Below, in pieces: positions 2 through 17,630 of a DNA stretch of 64,000 nucleotides. The translations under genes and the position numbers were made by a program. Origin of the DNA: Zoogloea sp. (lineage in GTDB: Bacteria; Pseudomonadota; Gammaproteobacteria; Burkholderiales; Rhodocyclaceae); assembly GCF_017302315.1 (NCBI RefSeq), contig NZ_JAFLDT010000003.1, positions 62,001-126,000 of the forward strand, in the 5' to 3' direction. Below the pieces are notes generated by a model, which was given only the letters and a program-made list of their open reading frames with translations, did not search any database and was not told where the DNA came from. How positions within the stretch are numbered: position 1 is the first letter of the stretch; every line of letters starts with the position of its first letter.

Positions 2-616
2 GCCGAACTCGCCGGGCAGGATCTTCAGCTTGAACGGAACAAGTGGAGCAGCGAGCTTGCCCAGCATGAGAACGCCTACGCTGCCGCCATGGCCCGGGCA
101 GACCGGACGCAACTCGTCATCAGCCAGGCACGCGCCGCTGAGGCCAGGGCCCAGCTCGCGTTGGTGGATGAGCAGCTCGGACGCATCCGTCTCGAGGCGC
201 CCTTCGATGGCGTGGTGATCCGGGGTGATCTCAGTCAGTCCCTGGGGGCACCGGTGCAGCGGGGCGATGTGCTTCTCACGGTAGCACCGCGGGATCGCTT
301 CCGAGTCATCATCGAGGTGGATGAGCGCGACATCGCCTGGATCAAGGTGGCGCAGCAGGGCAGTCTGGCGCTGTCGGCACTGCCCTGGGACACGCTGCCC
401 CTGAAGGTCGTCCGCATCACGCCGATGGCCAGCCCGATGGAGGGGCGCAACGTGTTCGAAGTCGAGGCCAACCTGGAAAGCCAGCCCGACACCCTTCGCC
501 CGGGCTTGCAGGGGGTGGCCCGGATTTCCGTGGGCGAGGCGCCTGTGTTGTGGGCCTGGACCCATCGCCTCGGCGAGTGGTTGCGGCTCAAGGCCTGGGG
601 CCTTTGGGGCGGCTAG
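2..616 (+). CDS. HlyD-family periplasmic adaptor, 5' end missing
   Basis: The reading frame is open from the left edge, so the start and N-terminus lie outside the window. What remains is the end of an alpha-helical hairpin (Ala/Gln/Glu-rich, to about residue 60), the second lipoyl half with the signature APFDGVVIRGDLSQSLG, and a beta-barrel part ending in LRPGLQGVARISVG, all typical of membrane fusion proteins. Such proteins join an inner-membrane exporter to an outer-membrane channel in the periplasm. The stop is one base before the GTG of the next gene, so the two are probably translationally coupled. The C-terminal tail (WAWTHRLGEWLRLKAWGLW) is Trp-rich and may touch the membrane. The exporter partner, if any, lies upstream of the window. 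The family is certain; the substrate is inferred from the operon to be the giant repeat protein. Confidence 0.88.
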   Translation, partial: AELAGQDLQLERNKWSSELAQHENAYAAAMARADRTQLVISQARAAEARAQLALVDEQLGRIRLEAPFDGVVIRGDLSQSLGAPVQRGDVLLTVAPRDRFRVIIEVDERDIAWIKVAQQGSLALSALPWDTLPLKVVRITPMASPMEGRNVFEVEANLESQPDTLRPGLQGVARISVGEAPVLWAWTHRLGEWLRLKAWGLWGG

Positions 617-617
617 C

Positions 618-2765
618 GTGGGCGACAGCGTCTTCAGTGCCCAGTGGTACCGTGTCGCCGGACTTCATCCCCGGCTGCGCGCCCATGTGCGCGTGACCCG
701 GCAGATCTACCGCAACGAGGTGTGGCACGTGCTGGCCGACCCGGTCAGCGGGCATTTCCATCGTATCAACGCCACGGCGTACGCCTTTGTGGGACGTTGT
801 GACGGGCGGCACTCAGTCGATGAGATCAGTGAGGCGCTGCTGGCCGGCGATCCTGACTCGGCGCTGACCCAGGACGAAATCGTGCGCCTTCTGGTCCAGC
901 TCAATCAGCACGGCCTGGTCCAGTGCGAGCTGACCCCCGACGTGGAATCGATCTTCCATCGGGAAGCGCTGGTTGAACGTCAGCGGCGGCGCCTGGCGAT
1001 CAACCCGCTGGCTTTCCGGGTTCGGCTGGGTGATCCCACGGCCATTCTGGCGCGCTTCGATCCGTGGCTGCGCACCCTCTTCGCGCGCCCCATCCTGGCC
1101 TTGTGCGTGGTGCTCATCCTGACGGGAACCCTGACTGCGGCGATGAATTTACCGGAGCTCTCGCTACAGGTTCGAACCCGGATGGGAACACCGCGCTTTC
1201 TCCTGATGGCCTGGCTCTTGTACCCCTTCATCAAGGCCGCCCACGAGTTCGCGCACGCCCTGGCCATCCGGCGGTTTGGCGGTGAGGTCCATCAAATGGG
1301 GGTGAGCTTGCTGGTACTGATGCCGGCACCCTTTGTGGACGCATCGGCCGCATCGGCCTTCCGCTATGCCTTCCAGCGCCTGGTGGTCAGCGGGGCAGGC
1401 ATCGTGGTGGAAATGGTGATCGCAGCCCTTGCGGTCATCCTGTGGGCACTCGTCGAGCCCGGTATCGTGCGCGATGCGGCCCTCGTCGTTGCCTTCGTCT
1501 GTGGCGTCTCCACGATCATCTTCAACGGCAATCCATTACTGCGCTTCGATGGCTACCATGTGCTGTGCGATGCCCTGGATCTGCCCAATCTGGCGTCTCG
1601 CAGCGTCGCCTGGTGGCGATACGTGATACTCAATCGTCGCCTGGGTCTCACCGAACACGCATCGCCCGAGCCGGGTCGGGGCGAACGCTTCTGGCTATAC
1701 ACCTACGCACCGATCTCCATGGCTTACCGACTGGTGCTTTCGATCGCCATCGTGGCCTGGATCGGTAGCTGGTCGACGCCCCTCGGGCTGCTTGCAGGTG
1801 CAGGTCTGGCCTATGCAATGGTCTTTCGTCCCGTGCTCAGGTTCTGGCGCCGTCTGCTGTCCGTGCCCCTTTCAATGCCCATGCGGCGGCGGGCACTCAG
1901 GGGGGCAGGGGCCCTGAGTCTGGCCGTGCTGGCCCTCTTCTGGGTCGTACCGCTCCCGTTTGCTACAGTGGGACAAGGCGTGGTCTGGGTACCCGAACAG
2001 GCCCAGCTTCGCACGGGCACCGACGGCTTCATCGCACACCTGGATGCCCGCCACGGTCAGCAGGTGGAGGCGGGGCAGGTCGTGGCGCACCTGTCCGACA
2101 GCCGGCTCGAAGCCGAGGCCATCAAACTGCGCAGCCAGCTGGAGGCCCTCGATGTGGACCTCTACAACGCCATGCTGCGTGACCCCCTCAAGGCTCGCAA
2201 TGTGGAGGAGGAGGTGGCGCGTATCCGCTCCGAGCTGGCCCGGATCGGAGAGCTTCAGGACCTGCTGGTGCTGCGGGCCGGCGTTTCGGGGCGCCTGGTG
2301 ATGCCCAGACAGGACGACATGGACGGGGCTTTCGTACCCCGCGGAACGCTGCTCGGGCACATTCTCACTGGCGAGGCGGCCGTGGTGCGCATCGCTGTGG
2401 AGCAGGGCGACGCTGCGCTGGTCCGCGGGGAGACGCGGGCAGTCTCGGTGCGTCTGGCGGAGATGCCGGGAGAGTCGCTGCCCGGCCGACTGCTGCGTGC
2501 CGTACCGGCGGCCACGGAGAAGCTCCCCAGTGTTGCCCTCGGTGAGCACGCGGGCGGCGACATTGCTGTTGACCCCACCGACAAGGATCATCAGCGGGCA
2601 CTGGCCCCGGTATTCATCTTCGACATCGGGGTAGGTGACAGTATTCTCGAACGGGCCGGGGGCCGGGCCTGGGTGCGTTTCGACCACGGCTGGATGCCCC
2701 TGGGCATGCAGTGGGGGCGCCATTTGAAACAACTCTTTCTGCGACAGTTCGATCCCGGCTCGTGA
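618..2765 (+). CDS. PqqD-like / M50 metalloprotease-like / HlyD fusion membrane protein
   Basis: This 715-residue protein has a GTG start directly after the preceding stop. Residues about 25-110 look like a PqqD-type winged-helix peptide-binding domain (GHFHRINATAYAFVGRCDG). Residues about 155-430 are a multi-pass membrane domain with the zinc-site motif HEFAH near residue 208 and a second metal-ligand motif NPLLRFDGYHVLCD near residue 304, as in site-2-protease (M50) relatives. Residues about 450-700 form an HlyD-like lipoyl/hairpin/lipoyl domain. Both HExxH residues and the downstream Asp are present, so proteolytic activity is possible, although relatives are often treated as exporter components. 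The context of two HlyD genes, a SecA-like ATPase and a giant surface protein suggests it recognises, processes or escorts that protein at the inner membrane. Domain calls are firm; the role is inferred. Confidence 0.85.
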   Translation: MGDSVFSAQWYRVAGLHPRLRAHVRVTRQIYRNEVWHVLADPVSGHFHRINATAYAFVGRCDGRHSVDEISEALLAGDPDSALTQDEIVRLLVQLNQHGLVQCELTPDVESIFHREALVERQRRRLAINPLAFRVRLGDPTAILARFDPWLRTLFARPILALCVVLILTGTLTAAMNLPELSLQVRTRMGTPRFLLMAWLLYPFIKAAHEFAHALAIRRFGGEVHQMGVSLLVLMPAPFVDASAASAFRYAFQRLVVSGAGIVVEMVIAALAVILWALVEPGIVRDAALVVAFVCGVSTIIFNGNPLLRFDGYHVLCDALDLPNLASRSVAWWRYVILNRRLGLTEHASPEPGRGERFWLYTYAPISMAYRLVLSIAIVAWIGSWSTPLGLLAGAGLAYAMVFRPVLRFWRRLLSVPLSMPMRRRALRGAGALSLAVLALFWVVPLPFATVGQGVVWVPEQAQLRTGTDGFIAHLDARHGQQVEAGQVVAHLSDSRLEAEAIKLRSQLEALDVDLYNAMLRDPLKARNVEEEVARIRSELARIGELQDLLVLRAGVSGRLVMPRQDDMDGAFVPRGTLLGHILTGEAAVVRIAVEQGDAALVRGETRAVSVRLAEMPGESLPGRLLRAVPAATEKLPSVALGEHAGGDIAVDPTDKDHQRALAPVFIFDIGVGDSILERAGGRAWVRFDHGWMPLGMQWGRHLKQLFLRQFDPGS

Positions 2766-4717
2766 CTCTCCCGCTGCACGCACGCATGCCCCTGCCCGGG
2801 CCGGCATGGGGAAGCTACCCCGAGCGCCGCGAGGCACCCCAGGCGCGCTGGCCTTGGTCGCGTGCCCCCTACCAGCGTCAGATCGCGGCCGTGGGGCAGG
2901 AGCGGGGTACTTGGCGGACGCTGGATGGAGTGGCGTTCGAAAGCCGCTTGCGTAGCCTGCGCGCAGCGATCGGCCGTGACGGTTTGACCCATCAGCACAC
3001 CGTGCAAGCCCTGGCGGCGGCCACCGAAGCCGCTCGCCGCGGACTTGGGTTGGAACCCTACGACACCCAGATCCATGCGGCGCTGATCATGCTGGACAAC
3101 CGCCTCGCCGAGATGGCAACGGGGGAGGGCAAGACCCTGGCCGCAGCCCTGGCAGCCAGTGTCGGCGCCCTCGCCGGGACACCGGTACACGTGCTGACCG
3201 CCAACGACTATCTTGTTGAACGGGACGCCACGGGCCTGGCCCCCCTTTACCACTGCCTGGGTCTTCGTGCCGGCTATGTCACCGGTGCCATGGACGAGGC
3301 CCAGCGGCGGGAAGCCTATGCAGCCCCGATCTGTTACGTGACCGCACGAGAGCTGGTCTTCGACTATCTGCGCGACGGTCAGCGGCGCGGCTTTGCGCGC
3401 TCGGATCTGCAGCGCCGCGCTGCCGCGTTTCATCAGAGCAACACCGTGCAGCCCTTGCTGCGTGGTCTCTGCATGGCCGTGGTGGATGAGGCCGACAGCC
3501 TGCTGATCGACGAGGCGATGATGCCCTTGATCCTATCCCGTCAGGTGGGCGACAGCGGGATGCGGGCCTTCATGTGGCAAGCTTGGTCACTGTCAGGTGA
3601 GATGTTGCCGGATGTCGATTTCAGGCTGGATGGGCCTGCGAAGCAGGTGAGCCTGACGGACCGGGGGCGGGAACGGCTGGCCGGGCGCGCAGCAAGCTTG
3701 GGGGGGCGATGGCGCTCGGCCCGCCTGCGGGATGAAGTGTTGGCCCTCGCGCTAACAGCGCGTCACGTCTATCACCGGGACGTCCACTACCTGGTTCGGG
3801 AAGGGCAGGTGGAAATCATTGACGAGATCACCGGCCGGGCTGCCCCGGGTCGGGTGTGGTCCCGGGGGCTGCACGGACTGGTGGAGCTGAAGGAAGGCTA
3901 CCGGCCGTCCCCCGCCACCGAAACCCTTGCCCAGATCACCTTCCAGCGGTTCTTCCCGCGCTATCACAGGCTCTGTGGCATGAGCGGCACGCTGCGCGAG
4001 GCTCGGGGCGAGTTGCGCGAGATCTATGGGCTGGATGTCGTGTGCATTCAGTCACGCTTGCCGGCCTCAAGGAAATCGCTGCCGAGCCGTTTATACAGGG
4101 GAAGACACGCTTTGTGGGACGCCGTTGCCAGCCGGGTCGCAGATGTCCGGCAGACAGGGCGTCCGGTGCTGATTGCCACGTCGTCAGTTGCCGATTCGGA
4201 ATTGCTTTCAGACCGACTGATCAGTGCCAGCATCGAACACCGGGTTCTCAACGCCCGTTTCGATGCCGATGAAGCGGCCATCGTGGCCTGCGCCGGTGAA
4301 CCGGGGCAGGTGACGGTAGCCACCAACATGGCAGGACGGGGTACCGATATTCCGCTTGGCGCTGGCGTGGCGGCAGCGGGGGGACTTCACGTGATGTGTT
4401 GCCAGTTCAATGCCTCGCGCCGGATTGATCGGCAACTGGAAGGACGGTGCGCACGCCAGGGGGATCCGGGCAGCGTCGAAACCTGGATCAGCCTGGATCT
4501 GCCCAGGGTGGCGGACGTGCCGCTGCTGACGCTGCTGGCGCGTCGGTATGGAACGATGCCCGAGGGTGCGGTCAGGCTGGGGTCTCGGTCGCTGCGCCTG
4601 TTGCTTGGCTGGTACCAGTGGCGCCAGGAAAGGCAGGCGCAACGGCTGCGTAGAGGCTTGTTGCAGGCGGATCGGGAGTGGGAGCGTGGGCTGTCATTTG
4701 GCGGCCCCGGGGAATGA
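2762..4717 (+). CDS. SecA-like preprotein translocase ATPase, compact variant
   Basis: The protein has the SecA helicase-type motor: Walker A MATGEGKT, the following segment VLTANDYLVERD, Walker B VVDEADSLLIDEA, and the C-terminal ATPase motifs VATNMAGRGTDI and GGLHVM. At about 650 residues it is much shorter than housekeeping SecA (about 900). It ends soon after the second ATPase domain, so the usual scaffold region is trimmed and the zinc/SecB-binding Cys tail is absent. The chosen GTG start overlaps the upstream stop (GTGA). GTG at 2711 and ATG at 2786 are alternatives. The gene is coupled to the next one by ATGA. In accessory Sec systems a second SecA exports large serine-rich adhesins, which fits the giant protein encoded two genes downstream. 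The substrate is an inference. Confidence 0.88.
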   Translation: MTLPLHARMPLPGPAWGSYPERREAPQARWPWSRAPYQRQIAAVGQERGTWRTLDGVAFESRLRSLRAAIGRDGLTHQHTVQALAAATEAARRGLGLEPYDTQIHAALIMLDNRLAEMATGEGKTLAAALAASVGALAGTPVHVLTANDYLVERDATGLAPLYHCLGLRAGYVTGAMDEAQRREAYAAPICYVTARELVFDYLRDGQRRGFARSDLQRRAAAFHQSNTVQPLLRGLCMAVVDEADSLLIDEAMMPLILSRQVGDSGMRAFMWQAWSLSGEMLPDVDFRLDGPAKQVSLTDRGRERLAGRAASLGGRWRSARLRDEVLALALTARHVYHRDVHYLVREGQVEIIDEITGRAAPGRVWSRGLHGLVELKEGYRPSPATETLAQITFQRFFPRYHRLCGMSGTLREARGELREIYGLDVVCIQSRLPASRKSLPSRLYRGRHALWDAVASRVADVRQTGRPVLIATSSVADSELLSDRLISASIEHRVLNARFDADEAAIVACAGEPGQVTVATNMAGRGTDIPLGAGVAAAGGLHVMCCQFNASRRIDRQLEGRCARQGDPGSVETWISLDLPRVADVPLLTLLARRYGTMPEGAVRLGSRSLRLLLGWYQWRQERQAQRLRRGLLQADREWERGLSFGGPGE

Positions 4718-5658
4718 CAAGAATGAACAACTGGATACTGGGTTTCGCGCTGTTGGGACTGGCCGGTCTGGCTGCTGCGGCGGCTCCACAGGCAGCAGGC
4801 AGCGCCGTGGGCGCTTCAACACCGACAAGTCTCGGCTGCCTGATCGAGCCCGACAAGGTCGCCGACCTGGGCAGTGCCGTCATTGGCGTGCTGGACACCC
4901 TGCGTGCCGAGCGCGGTGACATGGTCCGCAAGGGCCAAGTGCTGGCCGTGCTGCGCAACGACGTGGAACGGGCCACCGCCGAGGTGGCACGCACCCGCGC
5001 CACCACCGAGGCCGATTTGCGTAGCGCCGAGGCCAGTCGCGATCTCGCCCGCCAGAAGATGCGCAGAGCTGAAGACCTGGTGGCAAAGAACTTCGTCGCG
5101 CAGCAGGCCCTTGATCAGGCGCGAACCGATTTCCAGATGGCGGAGCAGAAAGTGCAGCAGACCCGCGAACAGCTCAGGGTGTGGAGTCGCGAGGTAGGGG
5201 TGGCGGAGGCCCAAGTGGGCCTGCGGACGATTCGCAGCCCTTTCGATGGCGTGGTGGTGGAACGCTATCTTTCCTTGGGCGAGCGGGTTGAAGAGAAGCC
5301 GATTTTCAAGGTTGCCAGGATTGATCCGCTACGCATTGAGGTCATCGTGCCCGCAGCCCGCTTCGGTACGATCCGGGTAGGCGAGGTGGCCAGCATCAAG
5401 CCGGATTTGCCCAATGTTGCGGCACTGGATGCCACCGTGGCCCTGGTTGATCGGGTGGTGGACGCCGCCAGCAACACGTTTCGGGTCCGCCTGACCCTGC
5501 CCAACCCCGGAAACACCCTTCCCGCAGGCCTGCGCTGCCGCATCACCTTTGGTGAAACTTCGCCCCAACCCAGGCTTGCCACTACCGGTAACCGTCTTGT
5601 GGATGGGATGCGGATGGACTCCAGTCTCGCATCGTTCAAGGAAAAGCCCCGGCGTTAG
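4714..5658 (+). CDS. HlyD/RND-type periplasmic adaptor with signal peptide
   Basis: This is a membrane fusion protein of about 314 residues. The ATG at 4714 overlaps the preceding stop (ATGA) and gives a signal peptide (MTRMNNWILGFALLGLAGL, then an Ala run). A lipoyl half (GVLDTLRAERGDMVRKGQVL) leads into a long coiled-coil hairpin (about residues 90-160), the second lipoyl half (IRSPFDGVVVERYLSLGERV), then a beta-barrel and membrane-proximal domain. No transmembrane segment other than the signal is seen, so the protein is probably periplasmic. It is the second adaptor of the operon and lies directly before the giant repeat protein gene. With the M50/HlyD fusion and the first adaptor it could form the periplasmic part of one export machine. 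Confidence 0.88.
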   Translation: MTRMNNWILGFALLGLAGLAAAAAPQAAGSAVGASTPTSLGCLIEPDKVADLGSAVIGVLDTLRAERGDMVRKGQVLAVLRNDVERATAEVARTRATTEADLRSAEASRDLARQKMRRAEDLVAKNFVAQQALDQARTDFQMAEQKVQQTREQLRVWSREVGVAEAQVGLRTIRSPFDGVVVERYLSLGERVEEKPIFKVARIDPLRIEVIVPAARFGTIRVGEVASIKPDLPNVAALDATVALVDRVVDAASNTFRVRLTLPNPGNTLPAGLRCRITFGETSPQPRLATTGNRLVDGMRMDSSLASFKEKPRR

Positions 5659-5666
5659 AAGTCCCC

Positions 5667-8600
5667 ATGAAACGCCGTCGCCATCACCGGGCGCTGATCG
5701 AGACTTTCGAGTCGCGCCTCCTCTACTCGGCCGACCCCGGGCCGGCGGGGATTGTCACGGCAGTGCTGGCTACGCCAGTACAGCTAAGTGATGACGCAAT
5801 CGGTCTGCAGGGTCAAGCCACCGAAATCGTGTTCGTCGATGCACGGACACCGGACGTTCAACAGATCATCGACGATCTTGCGGCCCAGCAGCAAGCCGGG
5901 CGACCGGTCGATGTCATCGTGGTCGGTGCCGATGAGGACGGTATTGGGCTGATTGGCAGTGCTCTTTCGGGGTGTGACGAGGTTTCCGCGATCCATCTGC
6001 TTGGCCACGGCGCCAGCGGCACCGCCCAGTTGGGCGCCAGCACCCTTGATGCCGAGTCCATCTTCCAGCGGGCAGGGGAAATTGCCGCCTGGGGTGACGC
6101 CCTCACCGGCGAAGCCGATCTGCTGCTCTATGGCTGCGATGTGGGTGACGGGGCGAGCGGTCGGTCACTGGTGGCAAGCCTGGCCCAGCTCACCGGTGCC
6201 GACGTGGCGGCCAGCGACGACCCCACGGGCAGCGCGCAGTATGGGGGCGATTGGCAGCTCGAGGTGCGTTCCGGCACCGTCGAAGCGCATCCATTTGCCT
6301 CAGCCGACTTGCAGTTCGAGTGGACGGGCACACTGGCGCTCACATCCCAGGGTTCGGAAACGCTGGTCAACACCAGTACCAGCGGCACTCAGACACTCAA
6401 CTGGTCCAGCAAGTCCGTCGCCATGGATGCCAATGGCAACTACGTCATCATCTGGATGGACGGCTCCGGTCAGAGCGATACCGGTATCGGCATTTTCGGT
6501 CAACGTTACAACGCCAGCGGTGTTGCGCAAGGTGCCCAGTTCCATGTCAACACCTTCACGTCCGACAACCAGCGCAGCCCCCAGGTGGCGATGGATGCAA
6601 GCGGTAACTTCGTGGTGGTTTGGGAAAGCGCCGGGCAGGATGGCAGCAGCAATGGCATTTACGCCCAGCGCTACAACAGCAGCGGCGTGGCCCAGGGCAG
6701 TGAGTTCCGCGTCAATTCAACCACCACCTACGATCAAATAGAGGCTGCCGTGGCGATGGATGCCAGTGGCAACTTCGTGGTTGCGTGGCAGAGCTGGAGC
6801 CAGGATCTGGCCAACTCCAACGGCATCTATGCCCAGCGATATAACAGTAGCGGCGTGGCCCAGGGCGGGGAATTCCTGGTCAACACCTATATCGCCGACA
6901 GCCAGACCGAGCCCAGTGTGGCCATGGATGCGTCGGGCAATTTCGTTATTGCCTGGCAGAGCTTCGGTCAGGATGGCAGCAATGAAGGCATCTACGCCAA
7001 GCGCTACAACAGCAGTGGCGTGGCGCAGGGCAGCGAGTTCCATGTCAGCACCTACACCACCAGCAATCAGGATCTGCCGGTGGTTGCCATGGACACGAGC
7101 GGCAACTTCGTCATTGTCTGGGAGAGTGCCCAGGACGGCAGCGGCAATGGCATATGCGGCCAGCGCTACAACAGCAGTGGCGTTGCCCAGGGCGGCGAGT
7201 TCCAGATAAACACCACAACGAGTAACCAGCAGCAGAACCCGGTTGTGACGATGCTGGCCGGCGGCGGTTTCGTCGTGACCTGGCAGAGCATGTCTCAGGA
7301 CGGCAGCTTCGACGGCGTTTACATGCGCCAATACGATTCTTCGGGCACCGCGCTTACCGGTGAAGTCCGGGTCAACACCACCACGACGGACTATCAGGAT
7401 GTACCCAGCCTGGCATCCGACGAAAAGGGGCACCTCGTTGTCGTCTGGCACGGCAATGGCCCCGGCGATACCGACGGGGTCTTCATGCAGCGCTATCTAT
7501 ACGCTGCGGCACCCGTCGTGACGCCAACCGGCTATAGCGGAACCTATGTGGAGAACGCCGCCGCCATCTACGATGCGGGCGCCACTGTTACCGATAGCGA
7601 CACCGCGGTATTCACCGGCGGCCAGCTGATCTACCAAATTACCGCCAATGGAACTGCCACCGATGAACTCGGCGTCCAAAATCAGGGGACCGGCGCCGGG
7701 CAGATAGGGTTGTCCGGAACCAACGTGACCTATGGTGGCACGACCATCGGCACTTACAGCGGAAGCTTTGGCAACGGCAGCACGCCGCTCACGGTCACCT
7801 TCAACAGCAACGCCTCCGTCGCCGCCGTGCAGGCTCTGGTACGCAACATTACCTACCGCAACACCAGCGACAGCCCCAGCACCGCCACCCGCACCATCAG
7901 CCTGACGGTATCCGACGGCACCGGCATGACGAGCACGCCGGCGGTGGTAACGATGGCGGTAACGTCGGTCAATGACGCGCCGGCGATCACCAGCGCGGCT
8001 ACGGCCAACGTTGCCGAGAACACCACGGCAGTCATGACCGTGACCGGCACGGACGCAGACCAGCCGGCGCAAACCCTGACTTACTCAATCGTAGGCGGTG
8101 CCGACGCGGCGAAGTTCGCCATCAACAGCAGCACCGGCGCGTTGAGCTTCGCGACGGCGCCCGATTTCGAAGCACCGACCGACTCAGGTGCCAACAACGT
8201 GTACGACGTGACCGTACAGGCGAGCGACGGCACCTTGAGCAGCACCAGAACCGTCTCCGTCACCGTTACCGCGGTCAATGAGAGTGCGCCGGTTATCACC
8301 AGCAATGGCGGCGGGGCATCGGCTTCGATCTCCATCGCCGAAAACACGCTGACGGTCACCTCGGTGACAGCCACCGATGCCGACCTTCCGGCAAGTAGCT
8401 TCATTTACGATATTTCCGGCGGTGTCGATGCGTCGAAATTCACCATCGATGCCAATTCGGGTGTCCTTCAGTTCGTCTCCGCACCCGACCACGAGAACCC
8501 CACCGATAGCGGTGCCAACAACGTTTATAACCTGATCGTCCGCGTCTCGGACGGCACCAATACCGACACCCAGTCCATCGCCGTGACGGTGACCAATGTC

Positions 8601-11600
8601 GCCAGCGAACTGATCGTCACCACGGCCGCGGATACCGCCGACGGCAACACCAGCAGCATTGCCAACCTTGTCGCCAACAAGGGGGCGGACGGCAAGATCT
8701 CGTTGCGTGAAGCGATTATCGCGGCCAACAACACGGCGGGCGGCGACACCATCACCTTTGCCATTGGCAGCGGCGCCCAGACCATCAACCTCAGCTCGGC
8801 CCTGCCCACGATCACCAGCGTGGTCCAGATTCACGGTGACTCTCAGGCAGGTTTCACGGGCGAGCCGCTGATCGCCCTCAACGGGGCCTCGGCCGGCGCG
8901 GGCAGTGCTGGCCTTGTCTTCAGCGGCGCCGCGGCGGCGGGTAGCTCGGTGAAATATCTGGCCATCAACAACTTCACCTCGAGCGGCATCCAGATTCTCA
9001 GCACATCCAACATCACCGTTGCTGGCAACTATCTCGGTACCAATCTGGCGGGCACGGCCGCTGCAGGTAACGAGGTCGGCGTCCTGATCTTCGATGCGGC
9101 CAACAACACGATTGGAGGCTCCACTGCAGCGACCCGCAATGTCATCTCGGGCAACACAGTGGATGGCGTGCAGATCTTCGGTGGGGGGGCCACGGGCAAT
9201 GTCGTTGCAGGCAACTACATCGGCCTCGACGCCACCGGTACGACAGACTTGGGCAATACCAACCAGGGCGTGGCGATATTCCTGGGGGCCACCTACAACA
9301 TCGTGGGCGGCACGACGGCGGGTGCGCGAAACGTCATCTCTGGCAACAACCAGGTTGGTGTGCGGATCAGCGAGTCCGGCACCAACTACAACACCATCAG
9401 CGGCAACTACATCGGTACCAATGCCGCCGGCACCGGGGCGATCGGCAATACCTTCCAGGGGGTGCAGATCGACGCGGGGAGTGCAAATCTCATCGGAGGC
9501 ACCGTTGCTGGCGCCCGAAACGTGATTTCGGGCAATCTGGACAACGGCATCCTCATCACCAATGGCGGTGTGAACAACTACGTCCAAGGCAACATCATCG
9601 GTCTGGACGCGAGCGGCAGCGGTGTGCTAGCCAACACTCAGGAAGGTATTGAGGTAACCGGCGGCGCCTATGGTACGTGGATCGGAGGTACGACCTCTGC
9701 CACCCGCAACATCATCAGCGGCAATGCTTGGCAGGGCATCGGCGTATATGGGGCGACCACGGACGGTACCGTGATCCGCGGCAACTGGATCGGTGTGGCC
9801 GCGGATGGCACCACCGCGGCAGGTAACGAGAAGCAGGGCATTCTCGTGATGGATGCCACCAACACGATGATTGGCGGGTCAAACATCGGTGAAGGCAACG
9901 TCATCGCCAATGCCCTCAATTCACATCAGGGGATCGTCATCTACGGCACCGCCACCGGTGCGGTGATGATCGGCAACAGCATTTATGCCAATGGTTCCCT
10001 GGGCATTGACGTGGGCGGCGACTGGATCAATACCAACGACGTCGGCGACACCGACACGGGGGCCAACAATCTGCAGAACACCCCGGAGCTCACCTCGGCA
10101 CTCACCTCGGGCAGCACCATCACCATCGTCGGCACCCTCAATAGCCTCGCCAGCACCAACTTCCGCATCGAGTTCTTTGCCAATCCCGTCCCGGATTCGT
10201 CCGGAAATGGAGAAGGGCAGAGCTATCTCGGTTTTGTTGATGTGGTGACCAACGCCAGCGGCAATGCCAGCTTCAGCCCGACGCTGACTGCCGCGGTGCC
10301 CACTGGGCAGGTGGTGACAGCGACGGCGACCCGACTGACATCGGGGATGGCCTTCATCGAGACTTCCGAGTTTGCTGCGAACATTTATACCAACCCTCCC
10401 TCCATCACCAGTGGAGGAGGTGGCGGCACGGCTTCGGTGTCGACTGCAGAAAACACCACGACAGTCTCCACGGTGACCGCAAGCGATCCCGACAGTGCAG
10501 CCCAGACGCTGACGTACAGCATCGCGGGTGGGGCCGACGCTGCAACGTTTGCCATCAACGGGAGCACTGGAACACTCAGTTTTCAGGTGCCACCGAATTT
10601 CGAGGCACCGACGGACAGCGACGGCAACAATACCTACAACGTCACGGTCCAGGTTGCCGATGGAACGGGTGCGGTGGATACCCAGGCCATCACCGTGAGT
10701 GTCACCAATTCCAACGATGCACCGCTCGTGACCTTTGTAGCCGGAAACACCGATTACGCCGAGAACGCCGGGCCGGTGATCGTGGCGGCCCTGGCGACGG
10801 TGGCTGACGAAGATGGGGGCGATTTCAACAATGGCAGACTGATCGTCCAGTTCACCGCCAACGGCCAGGCGGAGGATCGCATTGCCATCCGCAATCAGGG
10901 TACGGGCGTCGGGTTGATCGGGCTCGCGGGCAGCAACGTGACATACGGCGGCGTCGTCATCGGCACCTGGGCAGGCGGCACCGATGGCAACACACCGCTG
11001 ATCGTGACTTTCAACGCCAGTGCCGACGCCAGTGCTGCGCAAGCGCTCGGGCGCAACATCAACTATGAAAATGTCTCCGAGAGCCCGTCAACACTTGTCC
11101 GGACCATGGCCGGCTACGTGGAAGACGGCGATGGCGGCACGAGCAATGTCGCCAGCGGCACCGTGACCATCATACCGTCCAACGATGCACCGATCTTCAC
11201 CAGTTCTGCGGCAGTCGATGTGGCGGAGAACAGCACTGCCGTTACCACCATCACCTCCTCTGATCCGGATGGCGGAGTGTCCACATACGCCATCGTTGGC
11301 GGCGCGGACGCCGCCAAGTTCGCGATCAACAGCAGCAGCGGTGCCCTGAGCTTCCTGGCAGCCCCAGACTTCGAAGCCCCGACCGACGCGGGTGGCGACA
11401 ACGTCTACAACGTGACCGTCCAGGTGGCCGACGGCCAGGGGGGTACCAACAGCCAGGCGATCGCGGTGACGGTCACCTCCGCCAATGACAATGCCCCGGT
11501 GATCACCAGTGGGGCAACCGCCAGCGTTGCCGAGAACACCACGGCAGTGATGACCGTGACGGCCACTGACACCGACCAACCCACTCAGACGCTGAGCTTC

Positions 11601-14081
11601 AGCATCATCGGCGGTGCGGACGCCGCCAAGTTCGCGATAAATGCCAGCAGCGGTGCCCTGAGCTTCCTGGCAGCCCCAGACTTCGAAGCCCCGACCGATG
11701 CCGGTGGCGACAACGTCTACGACGTGACCGTCCAGGTATCCGACGGACAGGGCAGCACCGACAGTCAGGCCATCGCGGTGACGGTCACCTCCACCAACGA
11801 CAACGCCCCGACGATCACCAGCAGCGCCACAGCGAACGTTGCCGAGAACACCACGGCGGTCATGACCGTGACCGCGACGGACGTCGACCAGCCTGCCCAA
11901 ACCCTGAGTTATTCGATCGTTGGCGGCGCCGACGCCGCCAAATTCGCCATCAATGCCAGCACGGGAGCCCTGAGCTTCCTGGCGGCACCGGACTTCGAGA
12001 CCCCGACCGACGCTGGCGGCGACAACGTCTACGACGTGACCGTCCAGGTATCCGACGGCCAGGGCAGCACCGACAGCCTGGCCATCGCGGTGACGGTGAC
12101 CGCTGGCAACGACAATGCCCCGGTGATCACCAGCGGGGCAACCGCCAGCGTTGCCGAGAACACCACGGCAGTGATGACTGTAACGGCCACTGACACCGAC
12201 CAACCCGCTCAGACGCTGAGCTTCAGTATCACAGGTGGTGCCGACGCAGCCCGGTTTGCGATTGATGCGGTGAGCGGGGCACTACGTTTCGTTTCGCCTC
12301 CGGACTTCGAGCAATCTTCAGATGCAAATGGGGACAACGTCTACGAAGTGGTCGTGAGTGTTTCGGACGGCACACTTGATACCGCCACCAGCCTCAAGAT
12401 CAGCGTCATTGGGCTCAACGAAGCCCCCCTCGGCAGGGACGGCAGCATTCGCTTGAACGAAGACGAGAGCTACGTCTTCTCGACGGCCGATTTCGGCTTC
12501 TCGGATCCGGGTGACAACCATGCCGACCAGCTTGCAGCCGTGCAGATCGTTGGCTTACCCGCCCGGGGCACGCTCAGCCTTGACGGCCGGAGCTTGACTG
12601 ACGGTGAGTGGGTTGGAGCCGTCGACATCGCATCCGGGCTGCTGCGCTATGTTCCGCCCGCCGACGAGAACGGGTTGCCCTTCACATCGCTGGGCTTCCG
12701 GGTTCGGGACGACGGGGGTACGGCCCATGGTGGGGCCGACACTGAAACGGGGACGCATGTACTCACCATTGGCGTGACCCCGCTTTCAGACGCGCCGATG
12801 GGTACGAACGACAGCTATGTCCTCGATGAGGACGGCTTCATCCAGCTTGAAAACAGCGGTATTCTGGCCAACGACACTGATCCCGATGGATTGCCGTTGA
12901 GCGCTGAACTGGTCAGCGGCCCCGCAAACGGGCAGCTAACCTTGGAATCCAACGGAAGTTTCCGTTTCACCCCCAATGCGGACTGGAATGGCGTCGATGG
13001 CTTCAGCTATCGTCCGTCGAACGGACAGGAGGTCGGAGATATCGTTCGGGTCACCTTGACCGTTGCACCAGTCAATGATGCGCCGACCCTCGTCAAGGCT
13101 GGCTTCCCGCTTACGGCAGGCGGAACGGTGACGCTTGGTGCCAACGCCATTCAGGCAACGGATACGGATTCGCCGCAAAGTGAGCTTGTATACGAGGTCG
13201 TGAGGACCGAAAACGGGCATTTCGAACTAACATCCAACCCGGGGCAGGCGGTATCGGTGTTCTCCCATGCCGATCTGCTTGCGGGCAGGGTGGTGTTCCG
13301 CCATCAAGCGTTTGCCGATGGCCCCGTGGTAGTCCTCAGAGCCGGTGACGGGCAATCCATGGGCCCCGAATTGAAGGCCTCCGTGGCATTCAGCCCAGCC
13401 GGCTTGATTTCAACGAGTCCGCTACCGCCCAACGCAACTCAGCCGGACTCAGGGGTTGCGAACCCGTCGCAGGGCACGACTGGAGCACTCAAACCGACCG
13501 CTCGCCCCGCAACGCCGAGCGCGTTCACGCCGTTGCGGGTCGTCCCTGAAATGGCGGGGGCGGAGGAGGACGGGCATTCGCTTCATCTGGCAGATGGTTT
13601 CAAGACGGAAGCACCAGCCCGTCGCAGCTCGCTTGAATCCCTGGCGCGTTTCTCTAAGGCGCAGATTACGCTCACCCTGGGTACGCAACCCGATGGTGCT
13701 TTGTTGGAGTTCATGCTGGGCGCTCAGGATCCGGCCAAGGCAGATACGGGAAGCACGGCCTCCCGCACAGTCAGCGACCGTACCAAACCTCCCCCGCTGC
13801 CCGAGCCCTATGCAGATGTACAGCTTGTGTTGCACGCGGTGGAACTGAGCGGCATCGTCCTCACCGCGGGCGCCGTATGGTGGGCCAGCCGGGCCAGCGG
13901 CCTGATCGCCGGCCTGCTGATGGTGGCGCCCGCCTGGCGCACCTTGGATCCTCTGCCGGTGCTGGGCCCCGTCGATGACAGCGAAATGGATTGGGGAAGA
14001 CGGATGGATGACGAGATGACCCGGGACGAAATCGGCGCAGCCGATCTGTTCGATCAGGAGCGGGAAGGGTGGGTACGATGA
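5667..14081 (+). CDS. Giant repeat surface protein (DUF4347, cadherin-like, beta-helix), 2804 aa
   Basis: The start ATG follows the adaptor gene by 8 bases. The N-terminus lacks a classical signal peptide. It is basic and carries FESRLLYSADP near residue 13, a version of the LEPR-XLL type N-terminal motif of very large surface proteins. Next come a DUF4347 domain (about 50-215, with HLLGHGASG and LLLYGCDVGDG), seven to eight repeats of about 62 residues (about 225-610, core AMDASGNFVV.W / GIYAQRYNSSGVAQG), cadherin-like repeats (about 610-978), and a CSLREA-type right-handed beta-helix (about 980-1470, repeats of GNYIGT and RNVISGN). Then follow more cadherin-like repeats (to about 2250), tandem-95-like and CSPG-like domains (to about 2580), and a Pro-rich linker. 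A hydrophobic hairpin at about 2727-2762 (GIVLTAGAVWWASRASGLIAG) precedes an acidic tail. It is probably an adhesin held in the membrane by its C-terminus. Confidence 0.9.
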   Translation: MKRRRHHRALIETFESRLLYSADPGPAGIVTAVLATPVQLSDDAIGLQGQATEIVFVDARTPDVQQIIDDLAAQQQAGRPVDVIVVGADEDGIGLIGSALSGCDEVSAIHLLGHGASGTAQLGASTLDAESIFQRAGEIAAWGDALTGEADLLLYGCDVGDGASGRSLVASLAQLTGADVAASDDPTGSAQYGGDWQLEVRSGTVEAHPFASADLQFEWTGTLALTSQGSETLVNTSTSGTQTLNWSSKSVAMDANGNYVIIWMDGSGQSDTGIGIFGQRYNASGVAQGAQFHVNTFTSDNQRSPQVAMDASGNFVVVWESAGQDGSSNGIYAQRYNSSGVAQGSEFRVNSTTTYDQIEAAVAMDASGNFVVAWQSWSQDLANSNGIYAQRYNSSGVAQGGEFLVNTYIADSQTEPSVAMDASGNFVIAWQSFGQDGSNEGIYAKRYNSSGVAQGSEFHVSTYTTSNQDLPVVAMDTSGNFVIVWESAQDGSGNGICGQRYNSSGVAQGGEFQINTTTSNQQQNPVVTMLAGGGFVVTWQSMSQDGSFDGVYMRQYDSSGTALTGEVRVNTTTTDYQDVPSLASDEKGHLVVVWHGNGPGDTDGVFMQRYLYAAAPVVTPTGYSGTYVENAAAIYDAGATVTDSDTAVFTGGQLIYQITANGTATDELGVQNQGTGAGQIGLSGTNVTYGGTTIGTYSGSFGNGSTPLTVTFNSNASVAAVQALVRNITYRNTSDSPSTATRTISLTVSDGTGMTSTPAVVTMAVTSVNDAPAITSAATANVAENTTAVMTVTGTDADQPAQTLTYSIVGGADAAKFAINSSTGALSFATAPDFEAPTDSGANNVYDVTVQASDGTLSSTRTVSVTVTAVNESAPVITSNGGGASASISIAENTLTVTSVTATDADLPASSFIYDISGGVDASKFTIDANSGVLQFVSAPDHENPTDSGANNVYNLIVRVSDGTNTDTQSIAVTVTNVASELIVTTAADTADGNTSSIANLVANKGADGKISLREAIIAANNTAGGDTITFAIGSGAQTINLSSALPTITSVVQIHGDSQAGFTGEPLIALNGASAGAGSAGLVFSGAAAAGSSVKYLAINNFTSSGIQILSTSNITVAGNYLGTNLAGTAAAGNEVGVLIFDAANNTIGGSTAATRNVISGNTVDGVQIFGGGATGNVVAGNYIGLDATGTTDLGNTNQGVAIFLGATYNIVGGTTAGARNVISGNNQVGVRISESGTNYNTISGNYIGTNAAGTGAIGNTFQGVQIDAGSANLIGGTVAGARNVISGNLDNGILITNGGVNNYVQGNIIGLDASGSGVLANTQEGIEVTGGAYGTWIGGTTSATRNIISGNAWQGIGVYGATTDGTVIRGNWIGVAADGTTAAGNEKQGILVMDATNTMIGGSNIGEGNVIANALNSHQGIVIYGTATGAVMIGNSIYANGSLGIDVGGDWINTNDVGDTDTGANNLQNTPELTSALTSGSTITIVGTLNSLASTNFRIEFFANPVPDSSGNGEGQSYLGFVDVVTNASGNASFSPTLTAAVPTGQVVTATATRLTSGMAFIETSEFAANIYTNPPSITSGGGGGTASVSTAENTTTVSTVTASDPDSAAQTLTYSIAGGADAATFAINGSTGTLSFQVPPNFEAPTDSDGNNTYNVTVQVADGTGAVDTQAITVSVTNSNDAPLVTFVAGNTDYAENAGPVIVAALATVADEDGGDFNNGRLIVQFTANGQAEDRIAIRNQGTGVGLIGLAGSNVTYGGVVIGTWAGGTDGNTPLIVTFNASADASAAQALGRNINYENVSESPSTLVRTMAGYVEDGDGGTSNVASGTVTIIPSNDAPIFTSSAAVDVAENSTAVTTITSSDPDGGVSTYAIVGGADAAKFAINSSSGALSFLAAPDFEAPTDAGGDNVYNVTVQVADGQGGTNSQAIAVTVTSANDNAPVITSGATASVAENTTAVMTVTATDTDQPTQTLSFSIIGGADAAKFAINASSGALSFLAAPDFEAPTDAGGDNVYDVTVQVSDGQGSTDSQAIAVTVTSTNDNAPTITSSATANVAENTTAVMTVTATDVDQPAQTLSYSIVGGADAAKFAINASTGALSFLAAPDFETPTDAGGDNVYDVTVQVSDGQGSTDSLAIAVTVTAGNDNAPVITSGATASVAENTTAVMTVTATDTDQPAQTLSFSITGGADAARFAIDAVSGALRFVSPPDFEQSSDANGDNVYEVVVSVSDGTLDTATSLKISVIGLNEAPLGRDGSIRLNEDESYVFSTADFGFSDPGDNHADQLAAVQIVGLPARGTLSLDGRSLTDGEWVGAVDIASGLLRYVPPADENGLPFTSLGFRVRDDGGTAHGGADTETGTHVLTIGVTPLSDAPMGTNDSYVLDEDGFIQLENSGILANDTDPDGLPLSAELVSGPANGQLTLESNGSFRFTPNADWNGVDGFSYRPSNGQEVGDIVRVTLTVAPVNDAPTLVKAGFPLTAGGTVTLGANAIQATDTDSPQSELVYEVVRTENGHFELTSNPGQAVSVFSHADLLAGRVVFRHQAFADGPVVVLRAGDGQSMGPELKASVAFSPAGLISTSPLPPNATQPDSGVANPSQGTTGALKPTARPATPSAFTPLRVVPEMAGAEEDGHSLHLADGFKTEAPARRSSLESLARFSKAQITLTLGTQPDGALLEFMLGAQDPAKADTGSTASRTVSDRTKPPPLPEPYADVQLVLHAVELSGIVLTAGAVWWASRASGLIAGLLMVAPAWRTLDPLPVLGPVDDSEMDWGRRMDDEMTRDEIGAADLFDQEREGWVR
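6343..7500 (+). repeat. Tandem 62-residue repeats in the giant protein
   Basis: Seven to eight coding repeats of about 186 bp lie head to tail. Each encodes AMDASGNFVV.W..., a QDGS turn, GIYAQRYNSSGVAQG and a beta strand ending in VNT. The pattern is that of beta-propeller-like blades in large bacterial surface proteins. DNA identity between neighbouring units is high (for example the AACAGCAGTGGCGTGGC stretch recurs), so unit number could change by recombination. Confidence 0.8.
9010..9960 (+). repeat. Beta-helix repeats (GNYIGT / RNVISGN) in the giant protein
   Basis: At least six copies of a unit of about 46-50 residues carry GNYIGTNAAGT, a GN..QGV strand, IGGT and ARNVISGN. The block follows a SLREAIIAANN motif near 8700, which marks the CSLREA type of parallel beta-helix. 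The fold call rests on established family patterns; the repeats themselves are seen directly. Confidence 0.8.
11170..12420 (+). repeat. Near-identical cadherin-like repeats in the giant protein
   Basis: Four consecutive units of about 309 bp encode VAENTTAVMTVTATDTDQP, then GGADAAKFAIN, GALSFLAAPDFEAPTD, GGDNVYDVTVQVSDGQG and an NDNAP linker. The first copies of the same family lie at about 7960-8600 and 10390-10720. Adjacent units share long identical DNA stretches (for example starting at 11521 and 12142), a substrate for expansion and contraction. Confidence 0.85.
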
Positions 14082-15619
14082 GCATTGCCATCCCGACCAT
14101 CAATCCTATTGCGCGCATCGCCATCGGCTTGGTGGCCCTGTTGCTTTCACTGTTGATGGTGATGGACATGGTCTTTGGGCTGCTTCCCGACCGGGCGGAT
14201 TTCGCGCGTGAAGTCCGCCAGCAGATCAGTGAGGGCCTGGCAATCCAGTCCGCAGCGCTGCTCCAGGTCGGCGACATCCCGACCCTTCAGCGCACCTTGG
14301 GTGATGTGCTCAAGCGCAATGAGGCTCTGCGCTCCCTTGCCGTCCGGCGTCATGGTGGCGAGATCGTTGCGCGGGCCGGGGAGCATGAGCGCTACTGGCA
14401 CCCACCCGAAGATGGCTCTTCCACCGTGACTCAGGTTCGGGTTCCGGTGTTGTCGGACGGCAAGCCTTGGGGAGAGGTGGAGCTGGCCTTTCGGCCCGTG
14501 CTGCCTGAATCCCTCATCGAATGGTTCGCCTATCCACCGGTCGTGGCGCTGCTGACCATAGGCATCGGTGCGTTTTTCGCCTTTTATCTCTACATGCGGC
14601 GGGTGCTGGAGTACCTTGATCCCTCTACTGCCATCCCGGACCGGGTACGTACCGCTTTTGACACCTTGTCGGAAGGTGTGCTCATTCTGGACAAGCAGAG
14701 CAGGGTGGTGCTGGCCAATCGCGCGTTCCGGGCGCTCCATCCCCAGGCGCAGGACGAAATCACCGGTAAGCCGGTGATCGAAATGGAATGGTTGGTGGGC
14801 GGCTTCCATGTCGCGCCGGACGATCTTCCATGGTCCAAGGCAATGGCATCGCGGGCGAGCATGGGCGATGAAACCCTTGAGATCCTGCGCCCCGGGGAAG
14901 AGGAACAACCCTTGTGCACCATTGTCGGCTGTTCGCCCATTCTCGATGGGCATGGCCGCTTGCGAGGTTGCCTGGTGAGCTTCTCGGATGTCACGATGCT
15001 CCATCGCATCAATGACCAGCTACTGGTCACCCTGAGCGATCTTGAGATGTCGAAGGATGAGATCCGCCGCCAGAATGAGGAACTTCAGCGCCTCGCAACC
15101 CGAGACCCCATGACCGGCTGCCTCAACCGTCGCGCATTCTTTGGCAGCGCGGAGCCGCTATATGACCAGCTCAAGGCAGGGGGCGAGGAGGTCTGCTGCA
15201 TCATGAGCGACATTGACCACTTCAAATCTTTCAACGACCGCTATGGCCATGCCGTCGGTGACCAGGTGATCAAGTCGGTGGCGAAATGCCTGGGCTCGGA
15301 GCTGCGCGAAGTGGATCTGCTATGTCGCTATGGTGGCGAGGAGTTCTGCATCATGTTGCCTGGATCGACGCCCGAACAGGCGCTGGACGTGGCGGAACGT
15401 CTGAGGCTCAGCATCGAGAGGAATGCCGGCGCGGCGGTGCGCGACATCCCAGGCATCCGGATCACCTCCAGCTTCGGTGTGGCGTCAATCCGACTGGGCG
15501 CGAAGGATCCCGCCGAGTTGATCGATCAGGCCGACAATGCCCTCTATCAATCCAAGCAGACCGGGCGTAACAGGGTGTCCCTGTGGGCGGGAGAACGCTC
15601 CGTCGGGGCACAGAACTGA
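14078..15619 (+). CDS. Membrane-bound PAS-GGDEF diguanylate cyclase
   Basis: The start ATG overlaps the stop of the giant gene (ATGA) and has a purine-rich ribosome site (GGAAGGGTGGG), so this is the last gene of the operon. The protein of about 513 residues has a transmembrane helix at about 12-35, a periplasmic sensor part, a second helix at about 155-175, a PAS-like domain (about 195-320), a short coiled coil and a GGDEF domain. The active site reads RYGGEEF, and REVD nine residues upstream matches the product-inhibition I-site, so an active, feedback-controlled c-di-GMP synthase is expected. Its place in the operon suggests that it links the export state or surface display of the giant protein to c-di-GMP. 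That link is an inference. Confidence 0.92.
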   Translation: MSIAIPTINPIARIAIGLVALLLSLLMVMDMVFGLLPDRADFAREVRQQISEGLAIQSAALLQVGDIPTLQRTLGDVLKRNEALRSLAVRRHGGEIVARAGEHERYWHPPEDGSSTVTQVRVPVLSDGKPWGEVELAFRPVLPESLIEWFAYPPVVALLTIGIGAFFAFYLYMRRVLEYLDPSTAIPDRVRTAFDTLSEGVLILDKQSRVVLANRAFRALHPQAQDEITGKPVIEMEWLVGGFHVAPDDLPWSKAMASRASMGDETLEILRPGEEEQPLCTIVGCSPILDGHGRLRGCLVSFSDVTMLHRINDQLLVTLSDLEMSKDEIRRQNEELQRLATRDPMTGCLNRRAFFGSAEPLYDQLKAGGEEVCCIMSDIDHFKSFNDRYGHAVGDQVIKSVAKCLGSELREVDLLCRYGGEEFCIMLPGSTPEQALDVAERLRLSIERNAGAAVRDIPGIRITSSFGVASIRLGAKDPAELIDQADNALYQSKQTGRNRVSLWAGERSVGAQN

Positions 15620-15678: not shown

Positions 15679-16094
<416 letters not shown>

Positions 16095-16098
<4 letters not shown>

Positions 16099-16823
16099 TG
16101 CGCTTCCTTTCGTGCCGGCAGGGGATGGACACTGGCCGGGTTCTTGCGGACCTTGCCTCCGGTCACCAGGAAGGCGTGCAGGTCATGGGCGAAGTGCTTC
16201 AGCCGCGCCAGGATCTCCTTGTTACCGCGTACCAAGGCGTTGTAGCCCAGAACAGCGGGAATGGCCACGGCGAGACCCCCTGCGGTCATCACCAGGGACT
16301 CGCCCACCGGGCCGGCGACTTTGTCGAGGGTGGCCTGGCCGGCGGCACCGATACCAATGAGGGCGTGATAGATGCCCCACACCGTACCGAAGAGGCCGAT
16401 GAAAGGCGCGGTGGAGCCCACCGAGGCCAGGATGGACAGGCCGGACTGCAGGCGGCTGGTGGTGTCGTCGATGGATTGGCGCATGGTGCTGGTGAGCCAG
16501 TCATTGAGGTTGAGCACACCATGCAGTTCGTTCTGATGGTTGATATGGTGGGTCACGGCTTCGGTGCTGCGACTGGCCAAGTCACGGAAGGGGTTGTCCG
16601 CCTGTTCCGGCTGGAGTGCAGCCATACCTTCGTCAAAGCTGGTGCTGTGCCAGAACTGCTTGGCTGCGGCACTCATGCGACGCAATTGCATCAGGCTCCA
16701 CGCCTTGATCAGGATGACCGACCAGGAGGCAAGGGACATGACGATCAGGATGATGGCCACGGCATGGGAGACGCTGTCTCCTTGGGACCAGATCTGCCCG
16801 AGGCTGAAAGTGTTTTCGTTCAT
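16095..16823 (-). CDS. exbB: ExbB, TonB-complex proton channel subunit
   Basis: A 242-residue MotA/TolQ/ExbB-family protein. A first transmembrane helix lies at about 15-40 and a cytoplasmic loop follows. Two further helices carry the family signature LASVGSTAPFIGLFGTVWGI and the run through VGESLVMTAGGLAVAIPAVLGYN. It lies 33 bases after tonB and overlaps exbD by 4 bases, so the three are one transcription unit. ExbB forms the pentameric channel that holds ExbD. Confidence 0.95.
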
Positions 16824-16856
16824 GGGGGTTCCTTTGGGGAAATAGTGGAGAAGGGG

Positions 16857-17630
16857 TCAGGAGTTCAGGGAGAAATCGATGGGTACCCGGACAGTGCCTG
16901 CCACGGCCTGTTCACCCTGACGGGCGGGGACGAAGCGCCAACTACGCAGGACTGTCTCCCGGGCAACCTCGTCAAGACGGGCATATCCGCTGCTCTTGGC
17001 GATGGTCACCTCCAGAGGCTTGCCATCGGCACCGACATGAACCCGCAGCATCACCCGGCCTTCTTCACCCATGCGACGGGAAAGGCGGGGGTATTCAGGT
17101 ACAGGGTTGGAGAGGTAGGCCGCATCGAAGCGGGGCGCACTCACGGCGACCGGGGCTTCGCGGGCCACCGTGGGCGTCGCCGCCGGAGTCGGGGGCGCAG
17201 GCGCTGCGGGCGCAGTGGATTCGGCCGGATTGTTGTTTGTAGCAGCCGAGGTGATCACCGGGGGCGTGTTGGGTTGCACGCGCGGCGTCGGGGCCACTTT
17301 TGGCTTGATCGTGGGCTTGAGCGTCTTCTCGGGCGTCTTGACGGGCTCCGGGCGGGGTGATGGAGCGGGTTTCTGGGTATCCGGCGTGATCAGGCTGACC
17401 GTCATCAGGGGCTGAGGCGGCGTGATCGGCGGGCTGCTCTGACTGATCCCGTGGGCGATGATCGCCAGCAGCCCCACGTGCAGCAGGGTGGCAAGACCGA
17501 CCCCGGCTGCCGTGCGGCGGCGAGTGCGGCCTGTCGAACCGGCGATGCGGTGCCCAAGCAGGAAAGGGGCGGGCAGATCAAACCCGGCAGGCCCCTGCGT
17601 GTTGAGGGCTAGATTCATGTCGATATCCAT
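16857..17630 (-). CDS. tonB: TonB energy transducer
   Basis: An N-terminal transmembrane anchor (GLATLLHVGLLAIIAHGI) is followed by a long Pro/Lys/Ala-rich periplasmic spacer (KPAPSPRPEPVKTPEKTL) and a C-terminal TonB domain with NPVPEYPRLSRRMGEEGRV and a final beta strand. The frame stays open up to 17747, but a start there would sit inside the Fur-like palindrome. I therefore prefer ATG 17630, with 17666 and 17618 as alternatives; none has a strong ribosome site. TonB carries energy from ExbBD to outer-membrane receptors such as the one encoded divergently at 17873. Confidence 0.9.
   Translation of the reverse strand: MDIDMNLALNTQGPAGFDLPAPFLLGHRIAGSTGRTRRRTAAGVGLATLLHVGLLAIIAHGISQSSPPITPPQPLMTVSLITPDTQKPAPSPRPEPVKTPEKTLKPTIKPKVAPTPRVQPNTPPVITSAATNNNPAESTAPAAPAPPTPAATPTVAREAPVAVSAPRFDAAYLSNPVPEYPRLSRRMGEEGRVMLRVHVGADGKPLEVTIAKSSGYARLDEVARETVLRSWRFVPARQGEQAVAGTVRVPIDFSLNS

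Follow-up and report, generated by a model that had tools for sequence, protein, structure and literature searches.

Type I secretion (HlyB/HlyD/TolC) is one of the described systems closest to the locus presented here. LapA-type giants are type I cargo, and the likeness extends to the HlyD adaptors, the giant, adhesin-like cargo and a cyclic-di-GMP enzyme encoded nearby. The operon described here, however, contains no ABC exporter, and its likely cargo carries an N-terminal tag and no GGxGxD repeats. Accessory Sec (SecA2/SecY2) likewise combines a large repeat protein with a neighbouring second SecA-like ATPase, whereas here no second SecY was found in 12 genomes, the SecA-like protein lacks SecA_SW, and the locus includes adaptors and an M50-type protease. 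The M50 proteases of RiPP clusters (daptide, NF041824; YydH/LiaK, NF058609) resemble one fusion protein of the operon by profile match, but this protein is joined to an adaptor, its cargo would be thousands of residues long, and its scores lie below the cut-offs of the models. LEPR-XLL proteins (NF012209) share with the giant of this operon an N-terminal tag that scores over the cut-off, and this tag is all that the NF012209 model describes. The surveyed bacteria contain tagged open frames of 5,000-14,000 codons.

The machinery itself is not new. A four-gene SecA_DEAD/M50/HlyD locus was described by Kamneva, Poudel and Ward in 2015 (PMC4452313), with SecA already proposed as a motor replacing the ABC protein and the M50 protein as a pore. 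The M50 similarity was called 'weak', OEP proteins were reported in some such loci, the substrate was not named, and the main text mentions neither PqqD, LEPR, DUF4347 or cadherin nor a giant protein. Their Secondary SecA_DEAD locus has the same make-up as the one presented here: GAF-HlyD, M50-HlyD, HlyD, and a SecA_DEAD protein without SecA_SW. Methylorubrum extorquens AM1 is one strain for which that paper describes the operon. The compact SecA-like protein analysed here is a SecA_DEAD protein of this kind, and its neighbours are GAF-HlyD, M50-HlyD and HlyD proteins, the GAF match lying just under its cut-off and the M50 assignment coming from motifs and NCBIfam, not from Pfam. New with respect to that work are the cargo family, the pairing of tag and machinery, and a sister class of the machinery. 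In a limited search of mainly open-access journal papers, no paper joining the machinery to LEPR-tagged giants was recognised.

The window, i.e., the whole stretch of DNA that was analysed, comprises 64,000 nucleotides (bases 62001-126000 of contig C89) of a draft genome of 4.5 Mb. The operon is intact, with all six frames present, and a Pfam/NCBIfam scan named HlyD, PqqD, SecA, DUF4347, cadherin and GGDEF in it. Its features are the following.

2..616, plus strand: 3' part of the gene for the GAF-HlyD adaptor (whole protein 449 aa; gene start at L005:15267, left of the window)
618..2765, plus strand: PqqD-M50-HlyD fusion, 715 aa (Pfam/NCBIfam; AlphaFold mean pLDDT 83.8, pTM 0.61)
726..920, plus strand: PqqD-like domain (aa 37-101), proposed tag reader (Pfam PqqD, E=1.5e-7)
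1242..1256, plus strand: HEFAH zinc-binding motif (aa 209-213; alignment of relatives)
1524..1553, plus strand: NGNPLLRFDG, second M50 motif (aa 303-312; alignment of relatives)
1950..2699, plus strand: membrane-fusion (adaptor) part, about aa 445-694, with a helical hairpin at 495-548 (Foldseek, AlphaFold helices)
2762..4717, plus strand: compact SecA-like ATPase, 651 aa (Pfam/NCBIfam; model mean pLDDT 86.4, pTM 0.86)
3119..3136, plus strand: Walker A motif TGEGKT (sequence motif; DEAD, AGRGTDI and GRCARQGD also occur in this protein)
4714..5658, plus strand: HlyD2, an HlyD/RND-type periplasmic adaptor with an N-terminal hydrophobic segment (Pfam/NCBIfam)
5667..14081, plus strand: giant of 2804 aa with tag, DUF4347, cadherin/Ig-like repeats and C-terminal hydrophobic segment (Pfam/NCBIfam)
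5706..5735, plus strand: N-terminal tag FESRLLYSAD (aa 14-23), inside the LEPR-XLL (NF012209) match
5826..6335, plus strand: DUF4347 domain (aa 54-223; Pfam E=7.7e-46)
13824..13964, plus strand: C-terminal hydrophobic segment, then PAWRTLDPLPVL (aa 2720-2766), followed by an acidic tail (sequence inspection)
14078..15619, plus strand: membrane diguanylate cyclase, accessory (GGEEF and RxxD site; Pfam GGDEF)

The frames and junctions bear out the original prediction of a compact six-gene operon with 4-base overlaps and gaps of 1-8 bases. GAF-HlyD and the fusion are separated by 1 base (616/618), the fusion and the SecA-like gene overlap by GTGA (2762/2765), HlyD2 and the giant lie 8 bases apart (5658/5667), and an ATGA overlap is found both between the SecA-like gene and HlyD2 (4714/4717) and between the giant and the diguanylate cyclase (14078/14081). 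Left of base 1, read for a possible TolC or ABC partner, the start of the first HlyD gene is followed by a quinone-oxidoreductase-like frame on the opposite strand (translation judged by eye); no ABC exporter or TolC gene adjoins the operon in the window or in the sequence left of it. Two LssB-type ABC exporters of type I are encoded far off in the genome (G000:C84:5119 and C109:14535; L293, L294), both adjoining a frame of their own that exceeds 2200 aa and lacks the LEPR pattern. With no ABC gene adjacent and two elsewhere, type I ABC export was rejected as the operon's own motor. Accessory Sec was rejected too, as a second SecY was found in none of 12 genomes (exactly one was found in 10 of the 12, and none in the drafts G000 and G081). 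As had been claimed, the system fits neither type I ABC export nor SecA2/SecY2.

The GAF match of the first adaptor (E=2.6e-4, 22.0 bits) falls just under the cut-off of 22.4, and that of a relative (L129) exceeds it. In the AlphaFold model of the fusion, the PqqD-like start has three strands followed by three helices (aa 25-97), and a helical membrane domain stands between it and the adaptor end, for which the best Foldseek matches are MexA, MacA and AcrA. Pfam Peptidase_M50 gives no match to the fusion protein of the window. The 'M50' label is used because the HExxH and N..P....D motifs are invariant, an NCBIfam match exists below cut-off, and sister proteins match Pfam M50. Residues H209, E210 and H213, as well as N303 and D311, are invariant in 22/22 relatives spanning both classes of the machinery (class 1, that of the window, and the sister class 2) and in 32/32 of another set. 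The HExxH motif and the distal Asp of an active M50 (site-2-type) protease are therefore present, and the fusion is a predicted protease.

The NCBIfam model matched by the M50 part, and its best match, is that of a daptide-cluster metalloprotease (aa 18-413, E=1.7e-47, 162 bits, below the model cut-off of 300). This match, together with the two LssB-type exporters of the genome, could suggest that the machinery only trims or modifies the N-terminus of the giant, as a RiPP-like leader peptidase with adaptors would, while exit takes place elsewhere, e.g., through type I exporters. Such a division of labour is distinctly improbable: three adaptor-type proteins, plus a TolC in most class-2 loci, argue for a conduit, each LssB exporter adjoins its own large frame lacking the LEPR pattern, and the giant contains no GGxGxD repeats (0).

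The model of the compact SecA-like protein has the SecA fold, with a top TM-score, among the 50 matches listed, of 0.84 to SecY-engaged SecA (6itc_A), and of 0.82 to 5eul_A, but it stops after a single long helix (aa 608-644). Pfam recognises SecA_DEAD, P-loop_SecA, SecA_PP_bind and DEAD only, and no SecA_SW. The part absent from the compact protein presumably includes the wing and the two-helix finger of SecA; given the one-helix end and the lack of SecA_SW, wing and finger should be absent and SecA-style pushing at SecY would be impossible. The ATPase motifs are intact: 34/34 SecA-like sequences agree in Walker A, in DExD and in almost the whole of AGRGTDI (T120-T125, D242, E243, D245, A524-G527, D529, I530 and R562).

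The occurrence of the compact SecA was surveyed in 28 of 35 genomes with an M50 relative (21 of class 1 and seven of class 2). It is present in 17/21 class-1 and 0/7 class-2 genomes, a count in which the sole hit of G193, a frame of 637 aa that scores in the canonical range, was taken as canonical SecA. It was not found in four draft genomes with class-1 machinery (G190, G206, G293, G326), nor in G052 and G094, but in these two the M50 gene lies at a contig end. Three operons without a SecA-like gene (L116, L124, L130) were rejected as evidence against a motor, because their genomes hold a compact SecA elsewhere; both genomes with a SecA-less operon that were inspected (G324, G282) contain a complete second operon.

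Whether the SecA-like protein is the export motor is, in our view, evenly balanced. The main points against are the missing SecA_SW region, the existence of a SecA-free sister machinery, and the four drafts without compact SecA. These same points would fit an arrangement in which the M50/HlyD proteins export, the SecA-like protein is a cytosolic chaperone or targeting factor, and transport draws its energy from canonical SecA/SecYEG or from the proton gradient; class 2 indeed keeps M50, two HlyD and, in 16/20 loci, TolC, with no SecA-like gene. We nevertheless consider this arrangement unlikely, since the catalytic motifs are invariant throughout the 34 sequences, and since compact SecA is kept in 17/21 class-1 genomes, even where one operon is without it. 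If the motor role is true, the locus would represent an ABC-free export route, driven outside SecYEG by a motor derived from SecA.

The gene order is conserved among relatives. A set of 80 named loci was collected, from alpha-, beta-, gamma- and delta-proteobacteria, Nitrospira, Myxococcales and Omnitrophota, and the closest relatives of the M50 protein among these 80 kept loci come from five Zoogloea genomes (65-79% identity). Enough flank for gene-order counts (2.5 kb upstream, 3.5 kb downstream) is available for 53 of them, where GAF-HlyD is found in 53/53, the SecA-like gene in 49/53 (E<1e-40) and HlyD2 in 49/53. One locus counted without a SecA-like gene at this threshold (L151) carries a weaker SecA-like frame of 545 aa, and a weaker frame also occurs in L165. 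Relatives of the class-2 TolC are found beside class-1 loci in 0/53 of the flanked named loci, and close relatives of the diguanylate cyclase in 4/80 named loci.

The association of machinery and tag was examined in a class sample of 274 genomes. In 35 of these, an M50 relative was found (E<=1e-20). The 21 genomes at E<=4.2e-74 form class 1, and the other 14 have weaker hits, mostly to the sister machinery; the split between the classes was made by hand from the E-values, and one genome weak to both (G177) was placed in class 2. LEPR tags were counted with NF012209 at E<=0.01, a cut-off chosen because matches above 0.01 often give short frames. The genome-wide co-occurrence expected from the original prediction is strongly confirmed: tags are present in 16/21 class-1 genomes, against 3/14 with weaker hits and 4/239 without an M50 hit. 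The Fisher p-value for class 1 versus genomes without M50 is about 7e-18, with related genomes counted as independent. Among the five class-1 genomes without a counted tag, G094 shows a weaker match (E=0.0153) on a contig that also bears an M50 fragment, and G258, G264 and G265 have adjacent giants starting with QERRILFSAD, VEPRLLFSAG and LEERRLFSGG. In G008, also of class 1, no tag was seen at E<=0.01. In the other direction, G213, rated 100% complete, carries an LEPR frame of 7373 aa (C57:21725; L072, L096) and has no M50 hit at E<=1e-20.

Support also comes from named loci whose own stretch bears no tag. Fifty of the 80 were used; 22 had a tag nearby and were left out, as were two (L170, L181) in which the adjacent DUF4347 giant bears a variant tag, and L123, L147, L154, L156, L167 and L168 are also outside this set. 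An LEPR tag occurs elsewhere in the genome in 43/50 cases, on frames of up to 14,414 aa, and is missing at E<=0.01 in 7/50; at least one of the named-locus genomes repeats the class sample (L118 is G009, with the same LEPR hits). Tagged giants frequently adjoin the machinery, sometimes ending just upstream of the operon, at or beyond the edge of the stretch (G317:C1, G304:C5:1833457), and others lie far from it (for example G304:C5:912107, about 0.9 Mb off). Giants with an N-terminal LEPR-type tag are thus, judging from sequence, the likely cargo of the four-gene machinery. Since related genomes were counted as independent and L118 duplicates G009, the link could in principle merely reflect shared ancestry and the lifestyle of large-genome, surface-attached bacteria, with no working pair behind it. 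This is highly improbable, as the 21 class-1 genomes are spread over 18 families, the tag type changes with the machinery type, and tagged giants often lie beside the machinery. We are rather confident that machinery and giant form a dedicated exporter/cargo pair, and with a machinery tied to a recognisable address tag, the exit of such giants becomes experimentally testable. LEPR-tagged open frames in G296:C24, G308:C11 and G240:C84 reach about 14,000 codons.

The sister machinery (class 2) consists of an M50 protein and two HlyD proteins, mostly with OEP/TolC and without a SecA-like gene. Sister-type M50 relatives occur in 75/299 genomes of a phylum sample at E<=1e-60. Among 20 class-2 loci, the first HlyD is found in 20/20, the second in 19/20, TolC in 16/20 and a SecA-like gene in 0/20, and Pfam recognises no ATPase among ten proteins from four such loci. 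Both classes are present in the genome analysed here, which carries a TolC-containing class-2 M50/HlyD system (G000:C161:1-13837, L103) beside a cadherin-like giant; no LEPR tag was found on this giant, whose frame may have a broken start or begin beyond the contig.

The tag type tracks the machinery type, S-type tags going with class 1 and D-type tags with class 2. A tag pattern, run on 100 class-1 and 31 class-2 loci, found 29 and 13 tags, respectively, with S in 27/29 and D in 13/13; the exceptions are L045, which has A, and L134, which was misread, its real tag being LEPRVLYSAD. For DUF4347-type giants starting inside the locus, S-type tags account for 27/28 in class 1 (one A) and D-type tags for 12/12 in class 2. 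The DUF4347-type tags missed by the pattern are MEPRLLYSAD, LESRVLYSTD and QERRILFSAD in class 1, and LERRIAFDAA and LEQRIAFDAA (twice) in class 2. G177, whose M50 fits either class poorly, has the tag LEDRILLDAN.

Two parallel versions of the machinery, each with its own tag, lead to the proposal that the tag is a code sorting giants between exporters. The locus would then belong to a secretion system of its own kind, in which an inner-membrane gate, made of a site-2-type protease fused to a leader-peptide reader and an adaptor, reads the LEPR address and exports proteins with lengths up to about 14,000 residues; one version would use a private SecA-like motor and S-type tags (SAD), the other usually its own TolC and D-type tags (DGA). 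This broader reading is tentative, and we place it slightly below an even chance. A switch of tags between the two machineries would constitute a built-in specificity test. In another genome (G060:C215; L222:7602-11446), an M50 relative adjoins a SecA-like frame of 573 aa (31% identity), with no HlyD hit nearby; it is possibly a third machinery type.

The LEPR-XLL match of the giant (21.5 bits against a cut-off of 17; 23 bits in the genome search) is the only one in the genome at E<=1. This N-terminal tag is proposed as the giant's address, and no ordinary signal peptide is evident. The mean hydropathy over 15 residues reaches 2.0 in the tag regions of 0/33 giants (a hand-picked sample of 21/29 class-1 and 12/13 class-2 tagged giants), with 1.83 and 1.87 for two class-2 tags and 2.27 for HlyD2 as a control; the exclusion of a signal peptide by this measure is weak, because a TonB receptor with a normal signal peptide reaches just 1.90. 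The adhesin-like features of the giant are its repeat domains only (Pfam). Its C-terminal end has similar counterparts in L099, L105, L115, L123, L166, L231 and L241, with L158 as a variant. Giants outside the loci were compared over 40 C-terminal regions, 12 of which run off contig ends and one of which (L268) seems to be read in the wrong frame; of the 28 closed ends, only two (L231, L241) show the PAWR end. The C-terminal type is not general, because other giants have different ends, for example W..xFV then PNAxL[RK][VI] in L243, L250, L257, L262 and L263. A universal C-terminal sorting signal was rejected, several types having been found.

The export route that we infer would start with the SecA-like ATPase, holding and threading the unfolded chain of the giant. 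The PqqD-like domain of the fusion would bind the tag; RiPP leader peptides are bound by PqqD-type domains, and this analogy strongly suggests tag reading. The M50 membrane domain would take up the chain and may clip the tag, and the HlyD parts of three proteins (the M50 fusion, GAF-HlyD and HlyD2) would build a periplasmic tube, probably meeting a TolC-like channel whose gene lies elsewhere. Transfer would stop at the C-terminal hydrophobic segment, so that the giant is proposed to stay anchored in the inner membrane, its body spanning the envelope and presumably reaching the surface, and the GAF and diguanylate cyclase parts may tune the use of the system. That the operon is a dedicated exporter with its cargo, working by this full mechanism, seems moderately probable.

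Upstream of the operon, formate-dehydrogenase-like and NuoE/NuoF-like frames are found (L005:2034-7277; translations judged by eye). Right after it, at window positions 15679-20386, the minus strand carries ExbB/ExbD/TonB-like genes and the plus strand a gene for a TonB-dependent receptor, as judged from their translations.
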